From positions 62,001-126,000 of the forward strand of contig JALONG010000006.1 of assembly GCA_025455065.1 (NCBI GenBank): a stretch of 64,000 bases of DNA. Direction: 5' to 3'. The stretch is from Candidatus Kapaibacterium sp. GTDB lineage: Bacteria; Bacteroidota; Ignavibacteria; Kapaibacteriales; UBA4661. The notes beneath the pieces were generated by a model. It ran no database searches. It had not been told where the DNA came from and worked only from the letters and a program-made list of their open reading frames with translations. The position numbers and the translations under genes are program-made. This document shows, piece after piece, positions 18,362-46,708 of this stretch (within the stretch, counting starts at the first letter, position 1; each line of letters begins with the position of its first letter).

Positions 18362-19375
18362 TTAGCTGAAACTGCCTCCGCCGTAGCCGCTTTCACGCTG
18401 CTGTTTACGACGACGCAAGAACCACCACGTTCCCGCACCGCCACCGATAAGGACAAACCAGAGCCAGCCGCTTCCACCGGATTTTTTCTCGCGCTCTTCT
18501 TTGAGGCGTTCTTCGCGCTCAAGGCGCTCTGCTTCTGCTTTAACGCGGGCTTCTTCGGGGTCATCTTTTACGCCGAGCGCTTCATTGCTGAGTACGACGC
18601 TGGAATCTACTCCTTGAGGCATATAGGTCGTGTCGCGTACCCCACCTTTTTCTTTTTCGAGTTGTGCTACTTTGGCTTCGAGTTCTTTCAGGCGCTGTGC
18701 GGCTTCTGCGTCTTTTTGCGCGGCTACTTGCAAATCTTGACGGTATGCCATCATGCTGGGCGTGTTCCAATGGTTATAATAGAACATCGCGTTGTGTTGT
18801 GCTTGCAAATTGGAAAGTGCCGAAAGCATAAACAGTGTGCTGAACATCCCATAGCTAGGGCTTGTGTAGCCGATGTACGAGGGCGCAACGTAACCCATAC
18901 CGGAATAGTAGCTGTTGCGCGTTGTGTAAACGTTGTTGTAGCTGTAAGAGCGGCGCGGAATCATAGCGCTGGAGCGATTGTAACCGACGCTTCCCGAAGA
19001 ACCTTTGTAGGAATAGGTTTGTCCGCCGTAGCTTTCTTTGCGCGGAATGCCGTAGCTGCGCGGCGCGGAGCTACCCGATGAGCGGCTTACCGCCGTCGAG
19101 CGCGAACCGCCGAAGCCTCCGCCCGATGAAGGCGTAGAATACGAGCGGGAAGGCGCAGAAGGCGACGAATACGAATTACTCCGCGAGCCGCCAAAACTTG
19201 AACCGCTTGAACGCGAACCGCCAAAACTTGATGAGGGACGCGACGACGGGGAAGGCGAGGAAAAAGAACGCGATGACGAGCGCGAACCGCCGAAACTGCC
19301 GCCTCGGCGTTGAGCCAAGAGTTCATCGGCAACGAAAAAACACACGATAAGCGCAAGGCAAGTGATGAAACGCAT
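18362..19375 (-). CDS. Ser/Gly/Arg-rich exported protein with C-terminal membrane anchor
   Basis: A 337-residue protein of unknown function. After a signal peptide (MRFITCLALIVCFFVADELL, cleavage near LLAQ) comes a 110-residue segment of repeated FGGSRSS / SSPS words, very rich in Ser, Gly and Arg. Then a Tyr/Ser/Pro stretch, a hydrophobic patch (MFSTLFMLSALSNL), a Lys/Glu coiled coil (AAQRLKELEAKVAQLEKEKG), another charged coil, and a final transmembrane helix (GWLWFVLIGGGAGTWWFL) followed by a basic RRRKQQ stop-transfer and GGGSFS tail. The N-terminal low-complexity part would be periplasmic. Related proteins with RGGSFGGSR repeats and a tail anchor occur in other bacteria as poorly described membrane proteins. 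Confidence 0.75.
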   Translation of the reverse strand: MRFITCLALIVCFFVADELLAQRRGGSFGGSRSSSRSFSSPSPSSRPSSSFGGSRSSGSSFGGSRSNSYSSPSAPSRSYSTPSSGGGFGGSRSTAVSRSSGSSAPRSYGIPRKESYGGQTYSYKGSSGSVGYNRSSAMIPRRSYSYNNVYTTRNSYYSGMGYVAPSYIGYTSPSYGMFSTLFMLSALSNLQAQHNAMFYYNHWNTPSMMAYRQDLQVAAQKDAEAAQRLKELEAKVAQLEKEKGGVRDTTYMPQGVDSSVVLSNEALGVKDDPEEARVKAEAERLEREERLKEEREKKSGGSGWLWFVLIGGGAGTWWFLRRRKQQRESGYGGGSFS

Positions 19376-19457
19376 GATAAGCCTCCTGTGATGAAAAATT
19401 ATGTGGCTAATGCAAATGAAAATTCGGTCAATAAAGACATTTATACCAATAAACTAA

Positions 19458-20477
19458 CTACACCTCAGATTCTCGTGCAATTTGACCACTGAGTTGTTTT
19501 TTCAGCAAGTCAATATCGGCATCTACCATAATCCGCACGAGGTCTTTGAACGTGGTTTGGGGCTGCCAACCAAATGCTTTGCGGGCTTTGGAAGCATCGC
19601 CAATGAGCAAATCAACTTCGGCAGGGCGGAAATAGCGCGGGTCAATTTTGACGTAGCGTTCCCAATCCAAGCCGACGTGCGAAAAGGCTTCCACGAGAAA
19701 TTCCCGTACTGAATGGGTTTCGCCTGTGGCAATCACGTAATCATCGGCTTCGGGCTGCTGAAGCATCATCCACATTGCTTCAACGTACTCTTTTGCGTAG
19801 CCCCAATCGCGCTGCGCGTCGAGATTGCCGAGATAGAGCGAATCTTGCAAACCGGCTTTGATGCGGGCAATGGCGCGAGTAATTTTGCGGGTTACAAAGG
19901 TTTCGCCGCGCCTTGGAGATTCGTGATTGAACAAAATACCATTGCAAGCAAACATATTGTAGGATTCGCGGTAATTCACCGTCAGCCAATACGCATAGAC
20001 CTTCGCGGCAGCGTAGGGGCTACGCGGGTAAAACGGCGTTGTTTCGCTCTGCGGAACTGCTTGCACCAAACCATACATCTCGCTGGACGAAGCCTGATAA
20101 AACTTTGCAGAAATGCCCGTTTCGCGCATTGCCTCCAAGATACGGAGCGTTCCGATACCCGTAACGTCGCCTGTGTATTCCGGCGTGTCGAAGCTAACGC
20201 GAACATGGCTTTGAGCGCCGAGATGATAGATTTCGTCGGGTTCGATAGTGCGAATCAAACGGCTTAAATTCGAGGAATCTGCAAGGTCGCCGTAATGCAG
20301 AAACAGGCGTATTCCTGCGGTGTGCGGGTCGTTGTAGATGTGGTCAATGCGTGAAGTGTTAAAGGTCGAAGCGCGACGGATGATTCCATGCACTTCGTAG
20401 CCTTTTTCCAAAAGAAATTCTGCTAAGTATGAGCCGTCTTGTCCGGTGATTCCGGTGATAAGTGCTTTTTTTGCCAT
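19458..20477 (-). CDS. gmd: GDP-mannose 4,6-dehydratase
   Basis: Short-chain dehydrogenase family enzyme turning GDP-mannose into GDP-4-keto-6-deoxymannose, precursor of fucose, rhamnose and colitose-type sugars for surface glycans. The NADP-binding motif [35 protein letters not shown], the active-site Tyr in [15 protein letters not shown] and [19 protein letters not shown] are diagnostic. Start at ATG 20477 (MAKKALITG); the frame is open 31 codons further but that stretch is unlike Gmd. No GDP-fucose synthase or other sugar gene is adjacent; two glycosyltransferases occur elsewhere in the window. Confidence 0.96.
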
Positions 20478-36567: not shown

Positions 36568-36595
36568 TCCCCCTTTGCCCTTATCCCTTTGCCCT
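36568..36595 (-). repeat. Heptanucleotide tandem repeat across the gatA stop codon
   Basis: Read on the minus strand, four units of AGGGNNN: AGGGCAA, AGGGATA, AGGGCAA, AGGGGGA. The gatA TAA lies inside the second and third units (GGGATAAGGG). The same unit family follows folC at 2164-2212. Confidence 0.8.
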
Positions 36596-37996
36596 TTCAA
36601 GGTGGTACGCCACATTCAGGAGTTTTTCTTCGGCAAAGTGGTTTGCCTGTAATTGCATTCCAATCGGAAGCCCGCTAGAACTTTTTCCGGCAGGGATGCT
36701 AATGCCCGGAACACCGCCGAGGTTTGCCGATACGGTAAAAATATCCTCAAGATACATTGCAAGTGGGTCTGAAGTCTTTTCGCCGATTTTGAAGGGAGGC
36801 GTAGGAGCATTCGGCGTTAAGAAAATATCCGCCTTTTGGAACATTTCTTTGTAGTCATTGTAAATAAGGCGGCGTACTTTCAATGCCTTCGTGTAATAAG
36901 CATCGTAATAGCCTGATGAAAGCACGTAATTTCCAATCATAATTCGCCGTTTGACCTCTGCACCGAAGCCTTCGGAGCGGGTTGCGGTGGTAACTTCGCC
37001 GTCAGCGCCGATTTTACGCGCTCCATAGCGCACACCGTCGTAACGGGAAAGATTGGAAGAGGCTTCTGCCGTTGCAACGATATAGTAGGTGGGAATAACT
37101 GCCGACATATACTGCATTGCATGAGTAATCACCTGTGCGCCAAGAGATTTCAAGCGCTCCAGTGTTTGGTGATACACGCGCAATACTTCTGCGTCGCAGC
37201 CTGCAAGTTGCTCTTCCGGCAGCACGGCAACGGTCAGGGGTGATAGCGGTTCTTTCAAACTCGTGAGTGTGTGCTGCTGGGCGTGATGAGAACTCGTTGC
37301 ATCGCGCTCATCGAAGCCATTAACAGCATCGTACAAGAGTGCCGCATCTTCAACCGTAGAGCCGAATTGCCCGATTTGGTCAAGTGATGAACCGTATGCT
37401 ACTAAGCCGTACCGCGAAACACGTCCGTAGGTAGGTTTTAAGCCCACAACGCCACAAAACGAAGCCGGAAGCCTCACCGAGCCGCCTGTATCGCTGCCGA
37501 GCGCCGTGTGGCACATTTCCGCCGCAACCGCAGCCGCAGAGCCACCTGAAGAGCCGCCCGGGACGTAATCAGTGTTTACGGGGTTACGCACTGCACCAAA
37601 CGCGGAATTTTCATTGGATGAACCCATAGCAAACTCATCTAAATTTGCTTTGCCGACAATGACTGCACCGTTAGCTTTTAAGCGCTCTACAACGGTTGCG
37701 TCGTAAATCGGTACAAAATTTTCGAGGATTTTCGATGCACAGGTCGTGCGCTGCCCTTTGGTGGAGATATTGTCTTTCACAGCGACAACCATGCCTTCTA
37801 ATGGACGCGCAGAGCCGTCTGCAAAGCGTTTGTCGCTTTCTGCGGCTTGTTTGCGAGCTTCGTCGTTATTCACGCTTATCATGGCGTTAATAGTGGGGTT
37901 TTTGCTTTCAATCGTTGAAAGAAAATGCTCTAACGTTGCGGAACAGCTTGTTTCGTTGGCAATGCGGGCGGTGCGAAATGCGGAGTAAGATTTCAT
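36581..37996 (-). CDS. gatA: Asp-tRNA(Asn)/Glu-tRNA(Gln) amidotransferase subunit A
   Basis: Amidase subunit of GatCAB, which makes Gln-tRNA or Asn-tRNA from misacylated precursors. The Ser-cisSer-Lys catalytic set is seen in VAVKDNISTKG (Lys), YVPGGSSGGSAAAVAAEMC (cis-Ser) and LGSDTGGSVRLPASFCGVVG (Ser nucleophile). PTYGRVSRYGLVAYGSSLDQ is the amidase-signature end. Length 471 is normal. gatB and gatC are not adjacent, so the complex is encoded at several loci. It is the last gene of a minus-strand train behind the tat genes. The 3' end lies in a heptamer repeat. Confidence 0.96.
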   Translation of the reverse strand: MKSYSAFRTARIANETSCSATLEHFLSTIESKNPTINAMISVNNDEARKQAAESDKRFADGSARPLEGMVVAVKDNISTKGQRTTCASKILENFVPIYDATVVERLKANGAVIVGKANLDEFAMGSSNENSAFGAVRNPVNTDYVPGGSSGGSAAAVAAEMCHTALGSDTGGSVRLPASFCGVVGLKPTYGRVSRYGLVAYGSSLDQIGQFGSTVEDAALLYDAVNGFDERDATSSHHAQQHTLTSLKEPLSPLTVAVLPEEQLAGCDAEVLRVYHQTLERLKSLGAQVITHAMQYMSAVIPTYYIVATAEASSNLSRYDGVRYGARKIGADGEVTTATRSEGFGAEVKRRIMIGNYVLSSGYYDAYYTKALKVRRLIYNDYKEMFQKADIFLTPNAPTPPFKIGEKTSDPLAMYLEDIFTVSANLGGVPGISIPAGKSSSGLPIGMQLQANHFAEEKLLNVAYHLERAKG

Positions 37997-38055
37997 GCGG
38001 GAATTAAATGTTTTTTTTTTGCGGGGTATCGGTCAAAGTGTTGAATGGGTCTTGA

Positions 38056-38541
38056 TTATGCGCCATTTGTCGAGATGTCATTTTTTGAAATTTCGTTTGT
38101 CGAGATGTCGTTTGTCGAAATCCTGTTTTCGGCGGGGCGAATAACCATTTTGGGAGCAGAATCGCTTAGTGATGTGCTACTTCCTGCGTTTGACGGTGTT
38201 GGTACATTACTTGGCGTATTTTCGGTAGAGGTTGCTGTCTGTGACTCTGTATGCGCTTCAAACGGCGTTTGCGCGGTGTCTTGCGGAAACGAATCCATGT
38301 AGCGCTCAAACTTGGGAAGTTCATTTGTTGAGGTATCAGCGTTTTCGGGCTGCTTTTGGACGATTTCATCAACTTCGTCCGCCATTGCGTTCAAATTTCG
38401 CTGAAACTCCGTCTGGACGTTGCGTAAATGCGACATCCCTTTGCCAAATGACCGTGCTAATTCGGGCAGTTTTTCCGGTCCGAAAAGCAGTAAAATGGCA
38501 ATTACTACGAGCAAAAGTTCTCCGCCGCCAACGTCAAACAT
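38056..38541 (-). CDS. tatB: TatA/TatB-family twin-arginine translocase subunit
   Basis: A 161-residue protein: MFDVGGGELLLVVIAILLLF is the short transmembrane helix, GPEKLPELARSFGKGMSHLR the FGP hinge and amphipathic helix. An acidic linker and a Ser/Thr/Asn-rich tail of about 90 residues follow, longer than in TatA and more like TatB. The extreme C-terminus is four near-perfect 15-base repeats (ISTND, ISTNE, ISKND, ISTNG at 38062-38121). It is part of a run of three small membrane genes (tatA, a Tat-like gene, this one). Inner-membrane component that receives folded substrates with twin-Arg signals; TatC is not in the window. A/B assignment is inference. Confidence 0.85.
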   Translation of the reverse strand: MFDVGGGELLLVVIAILLLFGPEKLPELARSFGKGMSHLRNVQTEFQRNLNAMADEVDEIVQKQPENADTSTNELPKFERYMDSFPQDTAQTPFEAHTESQTATSTENTPSNVPTPSNAGSSTSLSDSAPKMVIRPAENRISTNDISTNEISKNDISTNGA

Positions 38542-38598
38542 TGTATTTTAGTCTTGAGTGTAACATACTGAGTTTTTGTGCTTACAAGCGCAAATTCA

Positions 38599-38778
38599 TT
38601 ATTTCTGAGAATCCTTGCGAAGTCGCTCTACTTCTTGCTCCAAGTTCGTAACTGCTTCGGTAAGGGTTTTGAGACGGCGATAGAATATAATAGCAAGAAC
38701 AAAGGGCGTTGCTTGCCACAACAAGGAGAGTATTGCAATAGATCCAAATGCCAATTCGCCACCACCAACATTAAACAT
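38599..38778 (-). CDS. Tat-like small membrane protein with coiled-coil tail
   Basis: A 59-residue open frame not covered by any longer frame of its strand. It begins MFNVGGGELAFGSIAILSLL, nearly the same first nine residues as the neighbouring TatB-like protein, then WQATPFVLAIIFYRRL. The FG hinge of Tat proteins is absent, and in place of the amphipathic helix there is a short coiled coil (TEAVTNLEQEVERL). One transmembrane helix, possibly two short ones. It sits 39 bases after tatA and 57 before tatB, same strand. Either a diverged Tat subunit or an accessory. Coding potential rests on the N-terminal similarity, the spacing and the complete frame. Confidence 0.62.
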   Translation of the reverse strand: MFNVGGGELAFGSIAILSLLWQATPFVLAIIFYRRLKTLTEAVTNLEQEVERLRKDSQK

Positions 38779-38817
38779 AACGGTATCTCAAAAAAATGAA
38801 TAAAAAGACAGCTTTTC

Positions 38818-38982
38818 TTACGCTTGTTTTTTCTCTTTTTCGTCATCGTTGTTTGCTGCTTTCTTAAATTCCTTGATTCCGGTGCCAAGACCTTTCATTA
38901 ATTCAGGAATTTTATTGTAGCCAAAAAGAAGGATAACCAAAAAGGCAATCACGAGGATTTCGGGTGTTCCAAAGCCAAACAT
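38818..38982 (-). CDS. tatA: Sec-independent translocase subunit TatA
   Basis: A 54-residue protein: [20 protein letters not shown] is the transmembrane helix, [20 protein letters not shown] the hinge and amphipathic helix with the G-x(2)K-x-PEL pattern, ending in an acidic/basic [11 protein letters not shown] tail. This is textbook TatA, which forms the transport pore for folded proteins. It is too short for long-frame searches. It opens a run tatA, Tat-like, tatB, gatA on the minus strand, preceded by a toxin-antitoxin pair and recA. Confidence 0.93.
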
Positions 38983-39045
38983 AGTGGTAGGGGATGAAAG
39001 TGAAAAAAGATGGTTCCGAAGAAAAACAGAAGACTGGCGAGAAAG

Positions 39046-39330
39046 TTACGACCATTTTCTTGGGCGACGGCGAACATGACCTATGGACAAAATGATGATA
39101 ATGTCAGTATCTATGCGGTAGAAAAGTGCAAATGGAAAGTTTTTTATGAGGAATCGCCTTGTTTTAGCTTTTCCAACCAGTACGCCCGATTTGGGCAACA
39201 TTTCAATTTGCGACAGGGCTGCTGAAACTTCAACCATAAATGTTGATGCTAAATCTGAAGTCAGTGCCTTGTAAAATTCAAACGCTTCTTCCAGCTCTTT
39301 CTCTGCAATAGGTAGAAACTCAATTCGCAT
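39046..39330 (-). CDS. RelE/ParE-family toxin
   Basis: A 94-residue RelE/ParE-fold protein: the start MRIEFLPIAEKELEEAFEFY, the middle FMVEVSAALSQIEMLPKSGV and the end FALFYRIDTDIIIILSIGHV plus RRRP are the family layout. RelE members cut mRNA on the ribosome and ParE members poison gyrase; which applies here cannot be told. Its antitoxin gene is 19 bases upstream on the same strand. The pair lies between recA and tatA. Confidence 0.9.
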   Translation of the reverse strand: MRIEFLPIAEKELEEAFEFYKALTSDLASTFMVEVSAALSQIEMLPKSGVLVGKAKTRRFLIKNFPFALFYRIDTDIIIILSIGHVRRRPRKWS

Positions 39331-39349
39331 TGTCTTCTTGTGTCAGGTT

Positions 39350-39574
39350 TTAACTTTCAAGGCGTTGTGCAAGTTTGTACAATACTTCCGAAGCAGGAAT
39401 AGAGCGCTTATCCTTGAGGTACTGCTCATAACGCTCCTCAGAAAGAGAAGCCCAGAGAGCGCTTGTATCATCGCTCTCCGAGCTGTCCATTGATGCCAAT
39501 AACTCCATGACCAACGCCGCACGGTCGCGGATTGGTAATCGCATTGCGGAATCTCGCAGTTCTTGGTGTGTCAT
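39350..39574 (-). CDS. Addiction-module antitoxin of the RelE/ParE-type pair
   Basis: A 74-residue protein (MTHQELRDSAMRLPIRDRAA, then LVMELLASMD) with the helical pattern of the addiction-module component family (PF09720-type), which pairs with RelE/ParE toxins. The mid region ALWASLSEERYEQYLKDKRS is typical. The start is set at ATG 39574; the open frame extends upstream into the recA end. It lies 31 bases behind recA and may be read through from it. Confidence 0.83.
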   Translation of the reverse strand: MTHQELRDSAMRLPIRDRAALVMELLASMDSSESDDTSALWASLSEERYEQYLKDKRSIPASEVLYKLAQRLES

Positions 39575-39605
39575 GGCAAAAAAATATGCAAAGGTTATTA
39601 CTAAT

Positions 39606-40742
39606 CTACTCTTCCACACTTGCTGCTGCGCCGCTTCCGGCAGGCTGATTCGCAAGTTGCGTGAGTTTTTGTTTTACGTCTTCTTCTAAGTGTGCAAGCA
39701 ATTTCGGATTTTCTTTGAGGATAATCCGCATAGAATCTCGTCCTTGAGCGCGTTCATCGCGGTAGCTGAACCACGAACCGCTTTTGGCAATAATTTTGTG
39801 TTCAAGCGCAAGGTCAATCATGTCACCGAGTTTGGAGATGCCTTCGTTGTACATGATGTCGAACTCAACTTCTTTGAAGGGCGGCGCAACCTTGTTTTTC
39901 ACAACTTTGATGCGCACACGATTACCAACGGTTTGGTCGCCTTCTTTAATCATGTCTTTGCGGCGAATATCCATGCGCACAGACGCATAAAACTTGAGCG
40001 CGTTACCGCCTGTTGTCGTTTCGGGATTACCGTACATTACGCCGATTTTCGAGCGTAATTGATTGGTAAACATAACGGTTGTTTTCGATAAGCCGATAGC
40101 TGCATTGAGTTTGCGCATTGCTTGGGACATAAGCCGTGCGTGGGAACCCATTTGTGCATCGCCCATGTCGCCTTCGATTTCCACACGCGGCGTGAGTGCT
40201 GCAACGGAGTCAATGATGATAACATCAATCGCATTGGAGCGGACAAGCGTTTCGACGATTTCCAGCGCCTGCTCGCCAAATTCGGGCTGCGCAAGCAGCA
40301 AATTGCTCAAATCAACGCCTAAACGCTTTGCATACTGAACATCCAATGCGTGTTCGGTATCAACAAACGCGGCAACACCGCCATTCTTCTGTGCTTCAGC
40401 GATAACGTGCAAACAAATTGTGGTTTTTCCCGACGATTCCGGTCCGTAAATTTCAATAATCCTTCCGCGCGGCACACCGCCAATACCGATAGCATTATCC
40501 AGCGAAATACATCCTGTTGAAATTGCATCTATCGGCACAACCGCCTTTTCGCTCAGGCGCATAATGGAGCCTTTGCCGTGGTCTTTCTCTATTTGCTCTA
40601 TTGCTGCTTGGAGGGCTTTTTTGCGAGCATCACTCGCGCTTACTGTTTCGCCTTTTTCTTTTTCTGCTTTGCCCTCGGCTTTGCTATCGGCTTTGCCGTC
40701 TGCTTTTGCAGATTTTACACTTTCTTCTTTCTCTTTCGCCAT
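39606..40742 (-). CDS. recA: Recombinase RecA with charged N-terminal extension
   Basis: DNA strand exchange and SOS coprotease. Walker A is [13 protein letters not shown], the Walker B region [20 protein letters not shown], the L2 loop [20 protein letters not shown] plus [13 protein letters not shown]. The family core begins at [20 protein letters not shown]; before it are about 36 extra residues made of repeated K-A-[DE]-[GS] words ([16 protein letters not shown]), unusual for RecA. The C-terminus is also low-complexity. Followed on the same strand by a toxin-antitoxin pair and the tat genes. A promoter with TTG and TAATTTAG lies about 95 bases upstream. No LexA box was recognised. Confidence 0.97.
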
Positions 40743-41708: not shown

Positions 41709-43370
41709 ATGACACAAATTGAACATCAAGCATTCAACGCACTTGCCGTAGGGGTCTTTGCCTTAGACAAATACTACACCGTACGGGCGTGGAACAGTCG
41801 CTTGTCCGAATGGACGGGGCTGGAAGCGGGCGCACTTGTGGGGACGGATATTCGTTTGTGGTTTGCGCATTGGCGGGCAAATGATTTTCGGGATGCGCTT
41901 AGTGCAATTTGGCAAACAAAAGAACTGGTGAATTTAGAAAGCCTACCAAGCGTGATTCCATCCTATTTTCAAGGAAGTACGCAGCGCACAAAACTTGCTT
42001 CAGCTCGGCTGTACACGGCTGCGGACGGCGAAACGGTTGCGCTTTTCACGTTGCAAGACATCACACCGCAAGCGCAAGAAATTGAGCATTTCAAAACATC
42101 TATGGTGGAAATTGAGGAAGCATGGCGCAATGACGAGGAAATACGCATTTTGAACGAAGAGTTGGAAAAGCGTGTAGAAGAGCGTACCGAAGAATTGGCG
42201 CGTTTGAACAACGCCTTAACCAAAGAAATTACCGTCCGCAAGCAAGTTGAAGAGGCGTTTCGGCATAGCGAGCATCTACTTTCGCTCATTTTTGAAAATG
42301 CTGCTGTTGGTTTGGCGTTATTGCACCAAAACGGTCGCTATATCCGATTAAATCAGATGTTTTGCCGCATCTTTGGTTTTAGCGTGGAAGAACTGTTGGG
42401 TAAACATTTTGCGTACCTGTATGCAGAAGAAGAGCGTACCGCAGCTATTGAACGTTGGGAGCAGATAATTCACGGAGAAACTACGACGTTAAGCGGCGAC
42501 CGTCATTTCAAACTTCGTAATGGAAACGAAATAGATATTTATTTTACCACTGTCCGTTTTACGACTGCCGACGGTGAAGTTCGCGTCATTACTACAGGAA
42601 CGGATATTACTGAAATCAAACGTGCAGAAGAGGAAATGCGGCTTGCGCTGGAGCGTGAGCAGGAGTTGAATAAGCTGAAAGCGAACTTTGTAACGGCTGT
42701 TTCGCATGAGTTTAGAACGCCGCTGACGGTGATTTTTTCTTCCTCAGAAATTTTGCAAGCCCAGCCGAATATGGTGCAAGAAAAGCGCGAAAAAATGCAC
42801 TTTCAAATTGAGCGCAGTGTCAAGCGGATGACCGAATTGCTGGATGAAGTCGTGTTTATTGAACGCAGTATGCGAGAGCGCACCATTGCTTTCCCCAGAC
42901 CGAATAATATCTACAAAATTGTTGCCGATGTTATTGCCGAATTGGAGGTTTTCGACCGTCAGCAACATTCAATCAGCGTACAATACATCGGCTTTGAGGG
43001 CGAACCGGGTAATAATAATCCGGCGTTTGTTTTGCCACTTGATGCAGGTTTGGTGCGCCCTGTGGTTAGTCATCTGCTGAGTAACGCCTTGAAGTTTTCT
43101 CCTCCCGAAACGCCTGTGAAAATGATTCTGGAGCGCACACAAAAAGATTTGCGAATCACTGTGAAAGACAAAGGAATTGGCATCCCAGAGCATGAGCAGT
43201 CCTATATTTACGACCTCTTTTTCCGTGCAAGCAATGTTGGTATAACGCAAGGTACAGGTATGGGACTGACTATCGTCAAACGCTGTGTGGATGCGCATGG
43301 CGGCGTTGTGATGTGCGATAGTCACCTAACGACCGGAACGGTGTTTCGGGTGCAGATACCGTTACAATAG
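41709..43370 (+). CDS. Cytoplasmic PAS-domain sensor histidine kinase
   Basis: A 553-residue kinase with no transmembrane helix. PAS-like domain 1 occupies residues 1-120 (FALDKYYTVRAWNSRLSEWT), a coiled-coil linker with EELEKRVEERTEELARLNNA follows, then PAS 2 at about 190-310 with a PAC end (ITTGTDITEIKRAEEEM). The dimerisation/phosphoacceptor motif is AVSHEFRTPLTVIFS (His near 332), the ATPase has SHLLSNALKFSPPE (N box), VKDKGIGIPEHE (G1) and TGMGLTIVKRCVDAHGG (G2). It would autophosphorylate and pass phosphate to a response regulator, none of which is nearby: an orphan kinase. The last 18 bases, including the TAG stop, are the first unit of a tandem repeat. Confidence 0.95.
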   Translation: MTQIEHQAFNALAVGVFALDKYYTVRAWNSRLSEWTGLEAGALVGTDIRLWFAHWRANDFRDALSAIWQTKELVNLESLPSVIPSYFQGSTQRTKLASARLYTAADGETVALFTLQDITPQAQEIEHFKTSMVEIEEAWRNDEEIRILNEELEKRVEERTEELARLNNALTKEITVRKQVEEAFRHSEHLLSLIFENAAVGLALLHQNGRYIRLNQMFCRIFGFSVEELLGKHFAYLYAEEERTAAIERWEQIIHGETTTLSGDRHFKLRNGNEIDIYFTTVRFTTADGEVRVITTGTDITEIKRAEEEMRLALEREQELNKLKANFVTAVSHEFRTPLTVIFSSSEILQAQPNMVQEKREKMHFQIERSVKRMTELLDEVVFIERSMRERTIAFPRPNNIYKIVADVIAELEVFDRQQHSISVQYIGFEGEPGNNNPAFVLPLDAGLVRPVVSHLLSNALKFSPPETPVKMILERTQKDLRITVKDKGIGIPEHEQSYIYDLFFRASNVGITQGTGMGLTIVKRCVDAHGGVVMCDSHLTTGTVFRVQIPLQ

Positions 43371-43463
43371 CAGATACCGTTACAATAGCAGATACCGTTA
43401 CAATAGCAGATACCGTTACAATAGCAGATACCGTTACAATAGCAGATACCACCGTTACAATAA
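43353..43463 (+). repeat. 18-bp tandem repeat that starts with the kinase stop codon
   Basis: Five exact copies of CAGATACCGTTACAATAG (43353-43442) plus one 21-base variant with ACC inserted (43443-43463). The first copy is the end of the histidine kinase gene (Q-I-P-L-Q-stop), so each later copy repeats the stop in frame. On the other strand the unit gives an open repeat (SAIVTV), which I consider non-coding. No gene before the next ATG at 43537. Confidence 0.9.
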
Positions 43464-43536
43464 ATGAACCCGTTTCCTTTGTTGCTGCTACGTTTTTTTC
43501 TGCCAAGATTTGTTGAATACCATACAAGCCCTTATT

Positions 43537-45639
43537 ATGTCTCGTTTTCAAGCATTCATTACCATTCTATTCTTTGCGCTACTTTCTCCCGCTGTTGCTC
43601 AAACTTACCGTGTAGAGCGCTTTCAAGATGGTCGTCCGCTCAGGCAGGGAAAGTTTTTGATTTCCGCAGGGTGGTCATTTTTAGGTATGGGCTATTCCGT
43701 GAATCCGCTTGGGGTAGCTCAAAACCCGCCCACAGAACCGATTCCTGAAGATCCTTCATCGGGTGTTGCGGGTATAAGCGGTAGTTTTGGGGTTGCTCCG
43801 TTTATGGACATTGGGTTGGAAATTGGTGGAGGGTTTGGCGGTCCATCGTTTGCGGGGTGGCTCAAAAGTTCATTGTTGCCCTACTCCTCGCCATTTCAAG
43901 TAGCCTTGCACACCACATTCGGCAATTCGTGGGCGGAGTTACGAGTTCCGGTGGATGACCCTGTTCGTACTTCTCGTCTTATTCGGTCAAGTTTGTTTGT
44001 GAGTAATTTTTCTGTGCCAATAAGCTATGACCTTGATAGCAGTTGGACGCTTATGGTGTCGCCGCACTTGGCATTTGCGGGGTATCGTGCGGGCGTGGGC
44101 TTTGATTCAATAGCGCCTAATGGTTTGAACGTCTCAACATTAGCAGAAACACAGGCTTCCGGTTGGTTTTACGGGTTTAGCATCGGTGCAAAAGTTGTTC
44201 GCCCTTCGCCCGAATGGTGGCAGTATCTTCTTCCAGTGCCGTTTTGGGCAAGCGGTTCGATGATGCTCTCGTTTATGTGGAATCAAGGCACGCTTAGAAG
44301 CGTTTCGTTGGGGTATCAGCATCTTTTTCCGTCGTTTGGAACATTGCTGACGACGGTAACGCAGGATGAAATGGATAATATCGAACACGAGCGTCGGCAA
44401 AAAGATAGTTTGGTAGCGCTTCAAAAGCAGCAGTTGGAACTTGAGCGCAGTCGCACGGGGCGCGCGCTTTCAGCAGAAATTTTGACGATAAAAGGTGTGT
44501 ATGAAAATGGAAAGGAAGAGCTGAACCCAACGCTGAATATTGAGGAAACGTCTGTCCGCGAAAGCCGACCGTTACTGGCTTCGGTCTATTTCGAGCATAA
44601 TTCGTTTGTCATTCCCACGCGCTACAAGCGCTTACGTTCTGCCGACCGTATGAGTTTTTCGATTGAAAATGTTGCGCATTTGCGGCTTGTGGAGGTGTAT
44701 CGGAATATCCTCAATATCGTCGGAAAGCGCATGAATGATAAGCCGGAGGCGCGTTTGGTACTGACTGGTTTTACTTCGGGTATTGGCGAAGAAGCAAATA
44801 ACCGTGCGCTTGCAGAACGCCGCGCTACTGCGATTTTGGACTATTTGGCGGATGTTTGGAAAATTTCGACTTCGCGCATTACTATCACCCTCGGCGAAGC
44901 ACAAACTTTTGGTCGAAATACCGATACCGCCTCATTTCGTCGGGTAGATTTGCGCTCCGATGATGCGGATATTTTAGGTAACATTGACCTCGCACAAACG
45001 CAGCGTACAATCACGCCGACAATCATTGATTTTGGCTTGGATATAGCTTCGGGGATAGGTGTTAAGCAGTGGACAATGGAATTAAGCCAAGTGGAAGGCA
45101 ATGAAGTGCGCACCTTGAAAATGGATAACGGAACGCGCTCTAATACCGCGCAATACCGTTGGAATATCACGGAGAACCCATCATCTGTGCCAAGTTCGGC
45201 GGAAAATATTGTTGCCCGTTTGGAAGTAACCGATATTACCAATCGCACGGCGGAATCATCGCTGGCGTTGATTCCCGTGCAGTATATGTCATTAGCGGCA
45301 AAACGCAGTAAGGGTAAGCCTGACGAGCGAATTGATGTGCAGTATCGTTGGCTTTTTGGGCAGGACGCAGAGCGCGGAATTGAGAGTAATCAACTACCCG
45401 TTCTCCCCTCTGTGCCAAGTGATAACGCCAAGTTTGTCATCATAACGCCTGCAACAGCTACAAATGCACAAATACAAGCCCTCAACGACGCTCTCAAGGA
45501 ACAGTTTAAGGAACAATCCTTGCGTACAGCAAGTGTTCGCAACGCGCCGCAGCAAAAAAATATCATTACCACGCCCGAAGAGCGCATTTACGGGAATTTG
45601 TACAAATTTGAGTATTATGTTCCGTTTGCAGTAAAGTAA
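43537..45639 (+). CDS. Envelope protein with one intact OmpA-like domain and degenerate second half (paralog 3)
   Basis: A 700-residue exported protein; signal peptide MSRFQAFITILFFALLSPAV ending AQ. Residues 35-270 look like a small barrel or surface domain (GVAPFMDIGLEIGGGFGGPS). Then comes a PLLASVYFEHNSFVIP lead-in and an OmpA-like module (RLVLTGFTSGIGEEANNRAL) near residue 410, as in paralogs 1 and 2. The final part (from about residue 600) keeps the linker and a TTPEERIYGNLYKFEY ending that resembles the TPEGRxYCR ending of the paralogs, but the second OmpA core is gone. Start ATG 43537 from the signal peptide. Follows the kinase and its tandem repeat. Confidence 0.78.
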   Translation: MSRFQAFITILFFALLSPAVAQTYRVERFQDGRPLRQGKFLISAGWSFLGMGYSVNPLGVAQNPPTEPIPEDPSSGVAGISGSFGVAPFMDIGLEIGGGFGGPSFAGWLKSSLLPYSSPFQVALHTTFGNSWAELRVPVDDPVRTSRLIRSSLFVSNFSVPISYDLDSSWTLMVSPHLAFAGYRAGVGFDSIAPNGLNVSTLAETQASGWFYGFSIGAKVVRPSPEWWQYLLPVPFWASGSMMLSFMWNQGTLRSVSLGYQHLFPSFGTLLTTVTQDEMDNIEHERRQKDSLVALQKQQLELERSRTGRALSAEILTIKGVYENGKEELNPTLNIEETSVRESRPLLASVYFEHNSFVIPTRYKRLRSADRMSFSIENVAHLRLVEVYRNILNIVGKRMNDKPEARLVLTGFTSGIGEEANNRALAERRATAILDYLADVWKISTSRITITLGEAQTFGRNTDTASFRRVDLRSDDADILGNIDLAQTQRTITPTIIDFGLDIASGIGVKQWTMELSQVEGNEVRTLKMDNGTRSNTAQYRWNITENPSSVPSSAENIVARLEVTDITNRTAESSLALIPVQYMSLAAKRSKGKPDERIDVQYRWLFGQDAERGIESNQLPVLPSVPSDNAKFVIITPATATNAQIQALNDALKEQFKEQSLRTASVRNAPQQKNIITTPEERIYGNLYKFEYYVPFAVK

Positions 45640-46525: not shown

Positions 46526-46708
46526 ATGATTGAAAGCATCAAAAAATTTGTCGAAGATGTTCGTAAAGAAATGAACAAAGTCGCTTGGCCCACACGCGAA
46601 CAACTTCGTGAAGCTACAACGATTGTGATTGTTACTTGCCTTGTTGTTGCTCTTTGCGTATATGTGATTGATACAGGTATGACGCTTGTAATGAAAAGCC
46701 TGTTTTAA
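46526..46708 (+). CDS. secE: Preprotein translocase subunit SecE
   Basis: A 60-residue single-span SecE: MIESIKKFVEDVRKEMNKVA, then WPTREQLREATTIV with the conserved amphipathic helix and WPTR motif, one C-terminal transmembrane helix. Holds SecY in the Sec translocon. Follows tRNA-Trp and precedes nusG, the classic gene order. Confidence 0.95.
   Translation: MIESIKKFVEDVRKEMNKVAWPTREQLREATTIVIVTCLVVALCVYVIDTGMTLVMKSLF

Follow-up and report, generated by a model that had tools for sequence, protein, structure and literature searches.

A small gene of 59 codons, located between tatA and tatB, encodes a protein that starts like TatB and departs from it thereafter. Our best reading is that of a TatB-derived, lineage-specific membrane protein that possibly docks on TatC and tunes the translocase. 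The coding status and the TatB origin of the gene are well supported, and the proposed function is inferred. The window referred to below is the whole stretch of 64,000 nucleotides that was analysed, and belongs to a genome of 5.6 Mb in 131 contigs. Its TatB finds its matches, among named public genomes, in metagenome assemblies of Candidatus Kapaibacterium / Ignavibacteria.

Location and coding character of the small gene

The small frame runs on the minus strand from an ATG at 38778 to a stop at 38599 and encodes the protein MFNVGGGELAFGSIAILSLLWQATPFVLAIIFYRRLKTLTEAVTNLEQEVERLRKDSQK. Read on the plus strand, positions 38599–38778 give a different translation. An earlier note on this DNA had placed a frame at these coordinates, tightly spaced from tatA and tatB; both statements hold, and the strand can now be given as minus. 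On the same strand, tatA (38818–38982, 54 aa; 56.8 bits with Pfam TatA_B_E, and above the cut-off of NCBIfam tatAE) precedes the small gene by 39 nt (38779–38817), and tatB (38056–38541, 161 aa; 47.5 bits with TatA_B_E, cut-off 21) follows it after 57 nt (38542–38598), so the small gene is encoded with tat genes on either side. The order on the minus strand is recA (39606–40742), an antitoxin-like gene of the Unstab_antitox type (Pfam; about 39350–39571), a ParE-toxin-like gene (Pfam; about 39046–39330), tatA, the small gene, tatB and a gatA-like gene (36581–37996), where recA and gatA are labels presumed from the sequences. In the genus relatives for which the upstream stretch was read, tatA stands closely behind a recA-like 3' end, the place taken by the toxin-antitoxin pair in the window. 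The sole promoter-like site on the minus strand of 37900–39700 is found at 39275–39246, inside the toxin-like gene, and promoter-like sites are no more frequent in this interval than in shuffles. An RNA element was ruled out, as 38000–39700 holds no Rfam match at E ≤ 1.

All long frames of the window except tatB were used to train codon log-odds, by which the small frame scores 0.183 per codon, compared with a mean of 0.189 (sd 0.130) in 279 gene windows and −0.192 (sd 0.139) in 199 shadow frames of 50–75 aa. Three of the shadow frames reach the score of the small frame, namely tatA, a frame at 46526–46708 that we take to be SecE-like, and a frame at 19310–19492; since tatA and the SecE-like frame are among them, real genes are present in the controls. 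Codons 21–59 alone score 0.149, which is equalled by 6 of 199 shadow tails, and the five other frames over the stretch all score below zero. Furthermore, the chance of an ATG frame of at least 59 codons on the same strand of the 276-nt gap is 0.022 (20,000 first-order simulations). We regard the small frame as likely to be a real gene.

A TatB-like start followed by features unlike those of TatB

The protein keeps a TatB start (MFNVGGGE; 38755–38778, minus strand), which is the second copy in this genome of the motif ATGTTYRAYRTNGGNGGNGGNGAR, searched for as degenerate DNA encoding MF(D/N)(V/I)GGGE. Among 123 genomes of the order, 79 contain the motif, 78 of them once and this genome alone twice, and it is absent from the remaining 44; the reversed motif, used as a control, was found in none of the 123. 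Position 3 is Asn in the small frame only, and Asp in the 79 other copies found in the order. In a phylum set of 395 genomes, which overlaps the 123, the motif is present in 24 and again occurs twice in this genome only.

An ungapped comparison with the TatB of the window gives 18 identical residues out of 59, of which 13 fall within the first 20. Different codons are used for 12 of the 18, and the third base is the same in 12 of 50 codons, which means that the amino acids are alike and the silent sites randomised; the same two counts do not support the idea that the tatB of the window was duplicated recently. A TatB profile made from 54 distinct sequences, including the TatB of the window, assigns 22.4 bits to the small frame, a value reached by none of 3000 plain shuffles (maximum 6.6) and none of 3000 shuffles that keep the hydrophobicity (maximum 14.8). 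This score is carried by the N-terminus: residues 10–59 alone obtain 4.7 bits and residues 21–59 alone 5.4 bits, values matched by 120 and 84, respectively, of 3000 hydrophobicity-keeping shuffles. The PF02416 model is not matched, and a search at E ≤ 10 returned neither Pfam TatA/B/E nor any other Pfam or NCBIfam family for the small protein. The alignment to the home-built profile spans residues 1–58 free of gaps. When the small frame was used as query against the 123 order genomes (E ≤ 0.2), 15 of 20 non-self places were a TatB gene aligned from residue 1, and the other five were not TatB. The TatB-like start pointed out in the earlier note is thus confirmed both by the motif statistics in 123 genomes and by a profile score above that of all shuffles, and we consider it very likely that the first ~20 residues derive from TatB. 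As judged by the profile scores, significant likeness to TatB is confined to about 20 N-terminal residues; the part beyond residue ~20 may be either far-diverged TatB or another segment.

In an alignment of 17 TatB sequences that includes the window's own, the invariant positions are M1, F2, D3, G5, G6, G7, E8, L19, F20, G21, P22, P26, G35 and Q43. Seven of these 14 are retained in the small protein (M1, F2, G5, G6, G7, E8 and L19), and D3, F20, G21, P22, P26, G35 and Q43 are absent. The N-terminal MF.xGGGE and the polar position 8 are accordingly present, with Asp3 exchanged for Asn, and the L19-F20-G21-P22 hinge is missing, L19 being followed by L20, W21 and Q22. In place of a short hydrophobic helix of about 12 residues there is a stretch of 25 residues without D, E, K or R (residues 9–33), which would suffice for a membrane helix of full length. 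The hydrophobic moment over residues 21–34 is 0.13, compared with 0.63 in TatB and 0.47 in TatA, so the amphipathic helix is missing as well. The putative coiled coil (residues ~34–58) has six consecutive heptad a/d positions, L36, L39, V43, L46, V50 and L53, a run equalled by 16 of 200,000 shuffles of residues 34–58. Single-sequence AF2 models, which are weak evidence for helices, have one helix over residues 7–58 in the small protein (mean pLDDT 87), and helices 6–20 and 22–62 with a break at residue 21 in the TatB of the window (mean pLDDT 65). The lack of an FG hinge and of an amphipathic helix had been noticed before and is upheld here, as is the C-terminal coiled coil in the sense of a pattern. 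Judged by location, start, hinge, helix length, amphipathicity and the PF02416 model, the small protein is not filed as TatB.

These results also bear on the view that the frame is a chance opening, without a protein, that happens to begin with a coincidental start motif. Further frames, 45 to 139 codons long, do overlap the stretch on both strands, and an orthologue was not found, both of which would suit a chance frame, but the start-motif statistics in 123 and 395 genomes, the codon score and the heptad all speak against it. On start motif, codons and heptad it was rejected, and we regard it as highly improbable and strongly disfavoured.

Distribution and origin

Eight of the nine other genomes of the family have a tatA–tatB gap without the small frame, and in the ninth (G008) the gap is cut by a contig end; protein searches of these nine genomes yielded no orthologue either. 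The gap measures 52–79 nt in G001, G002, G003, G004, G007 and G009, 177 nt in G005, again without such a frame, and 524 nt in G006. Throughout 70 TatB rows (L043–L050 left out), a redundant set in which some genomes are repeated and two rows are from this genome, the sole hinge-less frame with a TatB start is the small frame described here. RecA of six genus members is 83–88% identical to that of the window, with about half of the fourfold sites changed, and the family genomes are therefore not close relatives; because of this long branch, a duplication could have reached silent-site saturation unseen. The earlier note had proposed a search for the same frame in related genomes, and had taken absence from close relatives as an argument against the gene. 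The absence is borne out, but the closeness of the relatives is not. The distribution excludes a subunit conserved in the genus, and is compatible with a functional gene of the species.

Searches of 61, 395 and 123 genomes, in overlapping sets, returned no orthologue, and the matches at E 0.001–1 were TatB or unrelated-looking frames. At E ≤ 0.1 the phylum search (395 genomes) gave 11 non-self places, two of which are TatB and nine of which match inner stretches only; the best non-TatB match, in G121 (E 0.00115), aligns residues 15–48 inside a 361-aa frame. An orthologue was found neither in the genome contigs collection nor in viral contigs (tblastn, E ≤ 1e-3), nor in phages (E ≤ 1) or PDB sequences (E ≤ 10), and plasmids gave none, with two partial matches at E 0.3 and 0.7. 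A phage protein was rejected, as PHROGs matches are weak (best E 0.033). Titles and the first parts of abstracts from papers outside subscription mention no comparable protein. Since the sets searched hold no orthologue, conservation lends no support to a function.

Several rows show further peculiarities between tatA and tatB. In G006 (loci L033 and L064), another species of the genus, the gap is occupied by two frames that are presumably toxin-antitoxin-like and a different pair from that of the window, which suggests that insertions into the tat row may recur. The gap in L071 is 519 nt and has a 152-aa frame, which we take to be DinB-like, between tatA (805–981) and tatB (1501), and the corresponding gaps of L008 and L017 measure 524 and 535 nt. 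An inverted-repeat-like stretch, GGCACAGACATTCTTGTCTGTG ... CAGACAAGAATATCTGTGCCAC, was noted by eye in the tatA–tatB gap of L032 (G005). In the window itself, the C-terminus of TatB (38056–38130, minus strand) ends in the near-repeat ISTNDISTNEISKNDISTNGA, not seen in the 16 other aligned TatB sequences, and a frame at 43276–43551 (minus strand) has repeated SAIVTV units, apparently derived from a short tandem DNA repeat.

As for the origin, a second tat locus was rejected as a source, because no protein of the genome other than TatA and TatB exceeds the PF02416 cut-off, as was a mobile repeat, because the 301-nt stretch occurs once in the genome and otherwise gives only short matches of ~15–40 nt at E 0.06 or worse. 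Our tentative preference is for a lineage-specific small gene that would descend from a duplicate of tatB, or at least of its 5' part, and have been remodelled, to yield a non-productive placeholder that tunes the translocase. Weighing against this preference are the failure to find an orthologue in the sets searched, the unconvincing TatB likeness of residues 10–59 taken alone, the missing Pfam TatA_B_E match, the position of the sole minus-strand promoter-like site inside the toxin-like gene, and a TatC that looks ordinary by eye. Loss of half of the TatB invariants might instead point to a decaying tatB duplicate, whose frame has not yet closed and whose codon usage is inherited, but which has no function. 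Such a duplicate would be consistent with the seven of 14 invariants kept, with the loss of D3 and of six positions after L19, with the single known copy, and with the absence of the frame from the readable tatA–tatB gaps of relatives. However, a gain of six heptad steps (16 of 200,000 shuffles) is unexpected in a freely decaying copy, 59 codons have stayed open where chance allows this in 2.2%, the codons are gene-like past residue 20 too, and residues identical to TatB are retained though 12 of 18 have codons different from those of the window's tatB. We consider decay unlikely.

A chimera in which a tatB copy supplied the 5' end and some other membrane/coiled-coil segment the rest, with a role outside Tat, is in our judgement doubtful as well. 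It would explain why significant TatB likeness ends near residue 20 and why the tail, with its coiled coil and a membrane stretch of ordinary length, is unlike TatB. The tat row does accept insertions in this family, as seen from the frames in G006 and the Pfam-supported pair between recA and tatA in the window, and nine of the 11 non-self phylum places (E ≤ 0.1) are inner, non-TatB stretches, with a best E of 0.00115. On the other hand, a source of the tail was not convincingly found in the genome, phages, plasmids, solved structures or viral contigs, and the TatB profile aligns over residues 1–58 without any gap.

A possible role at TatC

Each of 10 family genomes encodes two proteins above the TatA_B_E cut-off and one TatC, so the ordinary Tat set is complete in this genome, and a comparison by eye of its TatC with those of nine relatives revealed no obvious special change. 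In Escherichia coli, TatA and TatB contact a polar cluster on TM5 of TatC through their polar residue 8, TatA and TatB can each occupy both TatC sites, and overproduction of TatB inactivates the Tat system (PMC5577447). A 2026 review describes the hydrophobic helix of TatA as ~12 residues long, with a polar residue setting its limit, and ties this 12-residue stretch to membrane weakening (PMC13186574).

For a remodelled duplicate of tatB, the reading that we favour, the small gene would be translated together with tatA and tatB, and its product would adopt the N-out/C-in topology of TatA and TatB, with Arg34, Arg35 and Lys37 on the inner side. The coiled-coil tail is predicted to form a dimer or higher oligomer, and the N-terminal half may still be able to bind the TatA/TatB sites on TatC through the polar contact at position 8. 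Without the short helix and the amphipathic helix, the protein should be unable to do the work of TatB or TatA. If docking is kept while these helices are gone, it could hold these sites as a placeholder that does not transport, and so lower or tune the assembly of the translocase. A role as Tat modulator is plausible only, somewhere between doubtful and tentative. The more specific picture of a third TatA/B-derived subunit, in which a TatB docking end, a full-length helix and a dimerising coiled coil would together act as a brake or placeholder on TatC, is one that we hold to be rather improbable. Of the earlier suggestion of a remodelled Tat protein acting as a third subunit or regulator, the origin stands, given the TatB-derived start, the lost hinge and amphipathic helix and the coiled-coil pattern; the role as subunit or regulator is one that we infer. 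Should the small protein bind TatC, it would represent a natural separation-of-function TatB, a docking end that has neither the membrane-thinning nor the amphipathic part. Docking, switching and transport could then be assigned directly, by experiment, to parts of TatA/TatB, and the gene would exemplify how a small lineage-specific subunit arises within a conserved gene row. Otherwise, the small gene would be an ordinary young duplicate.

Compared with TatB (PF02416), the small protein has the same MF.VGGGEL start with Glu8, a single N-terminal membrane helix, a place in the tat gene row and, presumably, the N-out topology. Unlike TatB, it lacks the FG(P) hinge, the short helix, the amphipathic helix and the long polar tail, has 59 residues instead of 161, and falls below Pfam detection. 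PspB-type proteins have the same layout, with an N-terminal membrane helix and a short cytoplasmic coiled coil, but the small protein differs from them in its TatB-like start and tat location, and has no Pfam match (E ≤ 10). TatE and second TatA paralogues, which typically retain the hinge and the amphipathic helix, are similar in being extra TatA-family-derived proteins within one genome, whereas the small protein has neither of these elements and is TatB-like rather than TatA-like. Two TatA proteins are reported for Campylobacter jejuni (PMC4148689).
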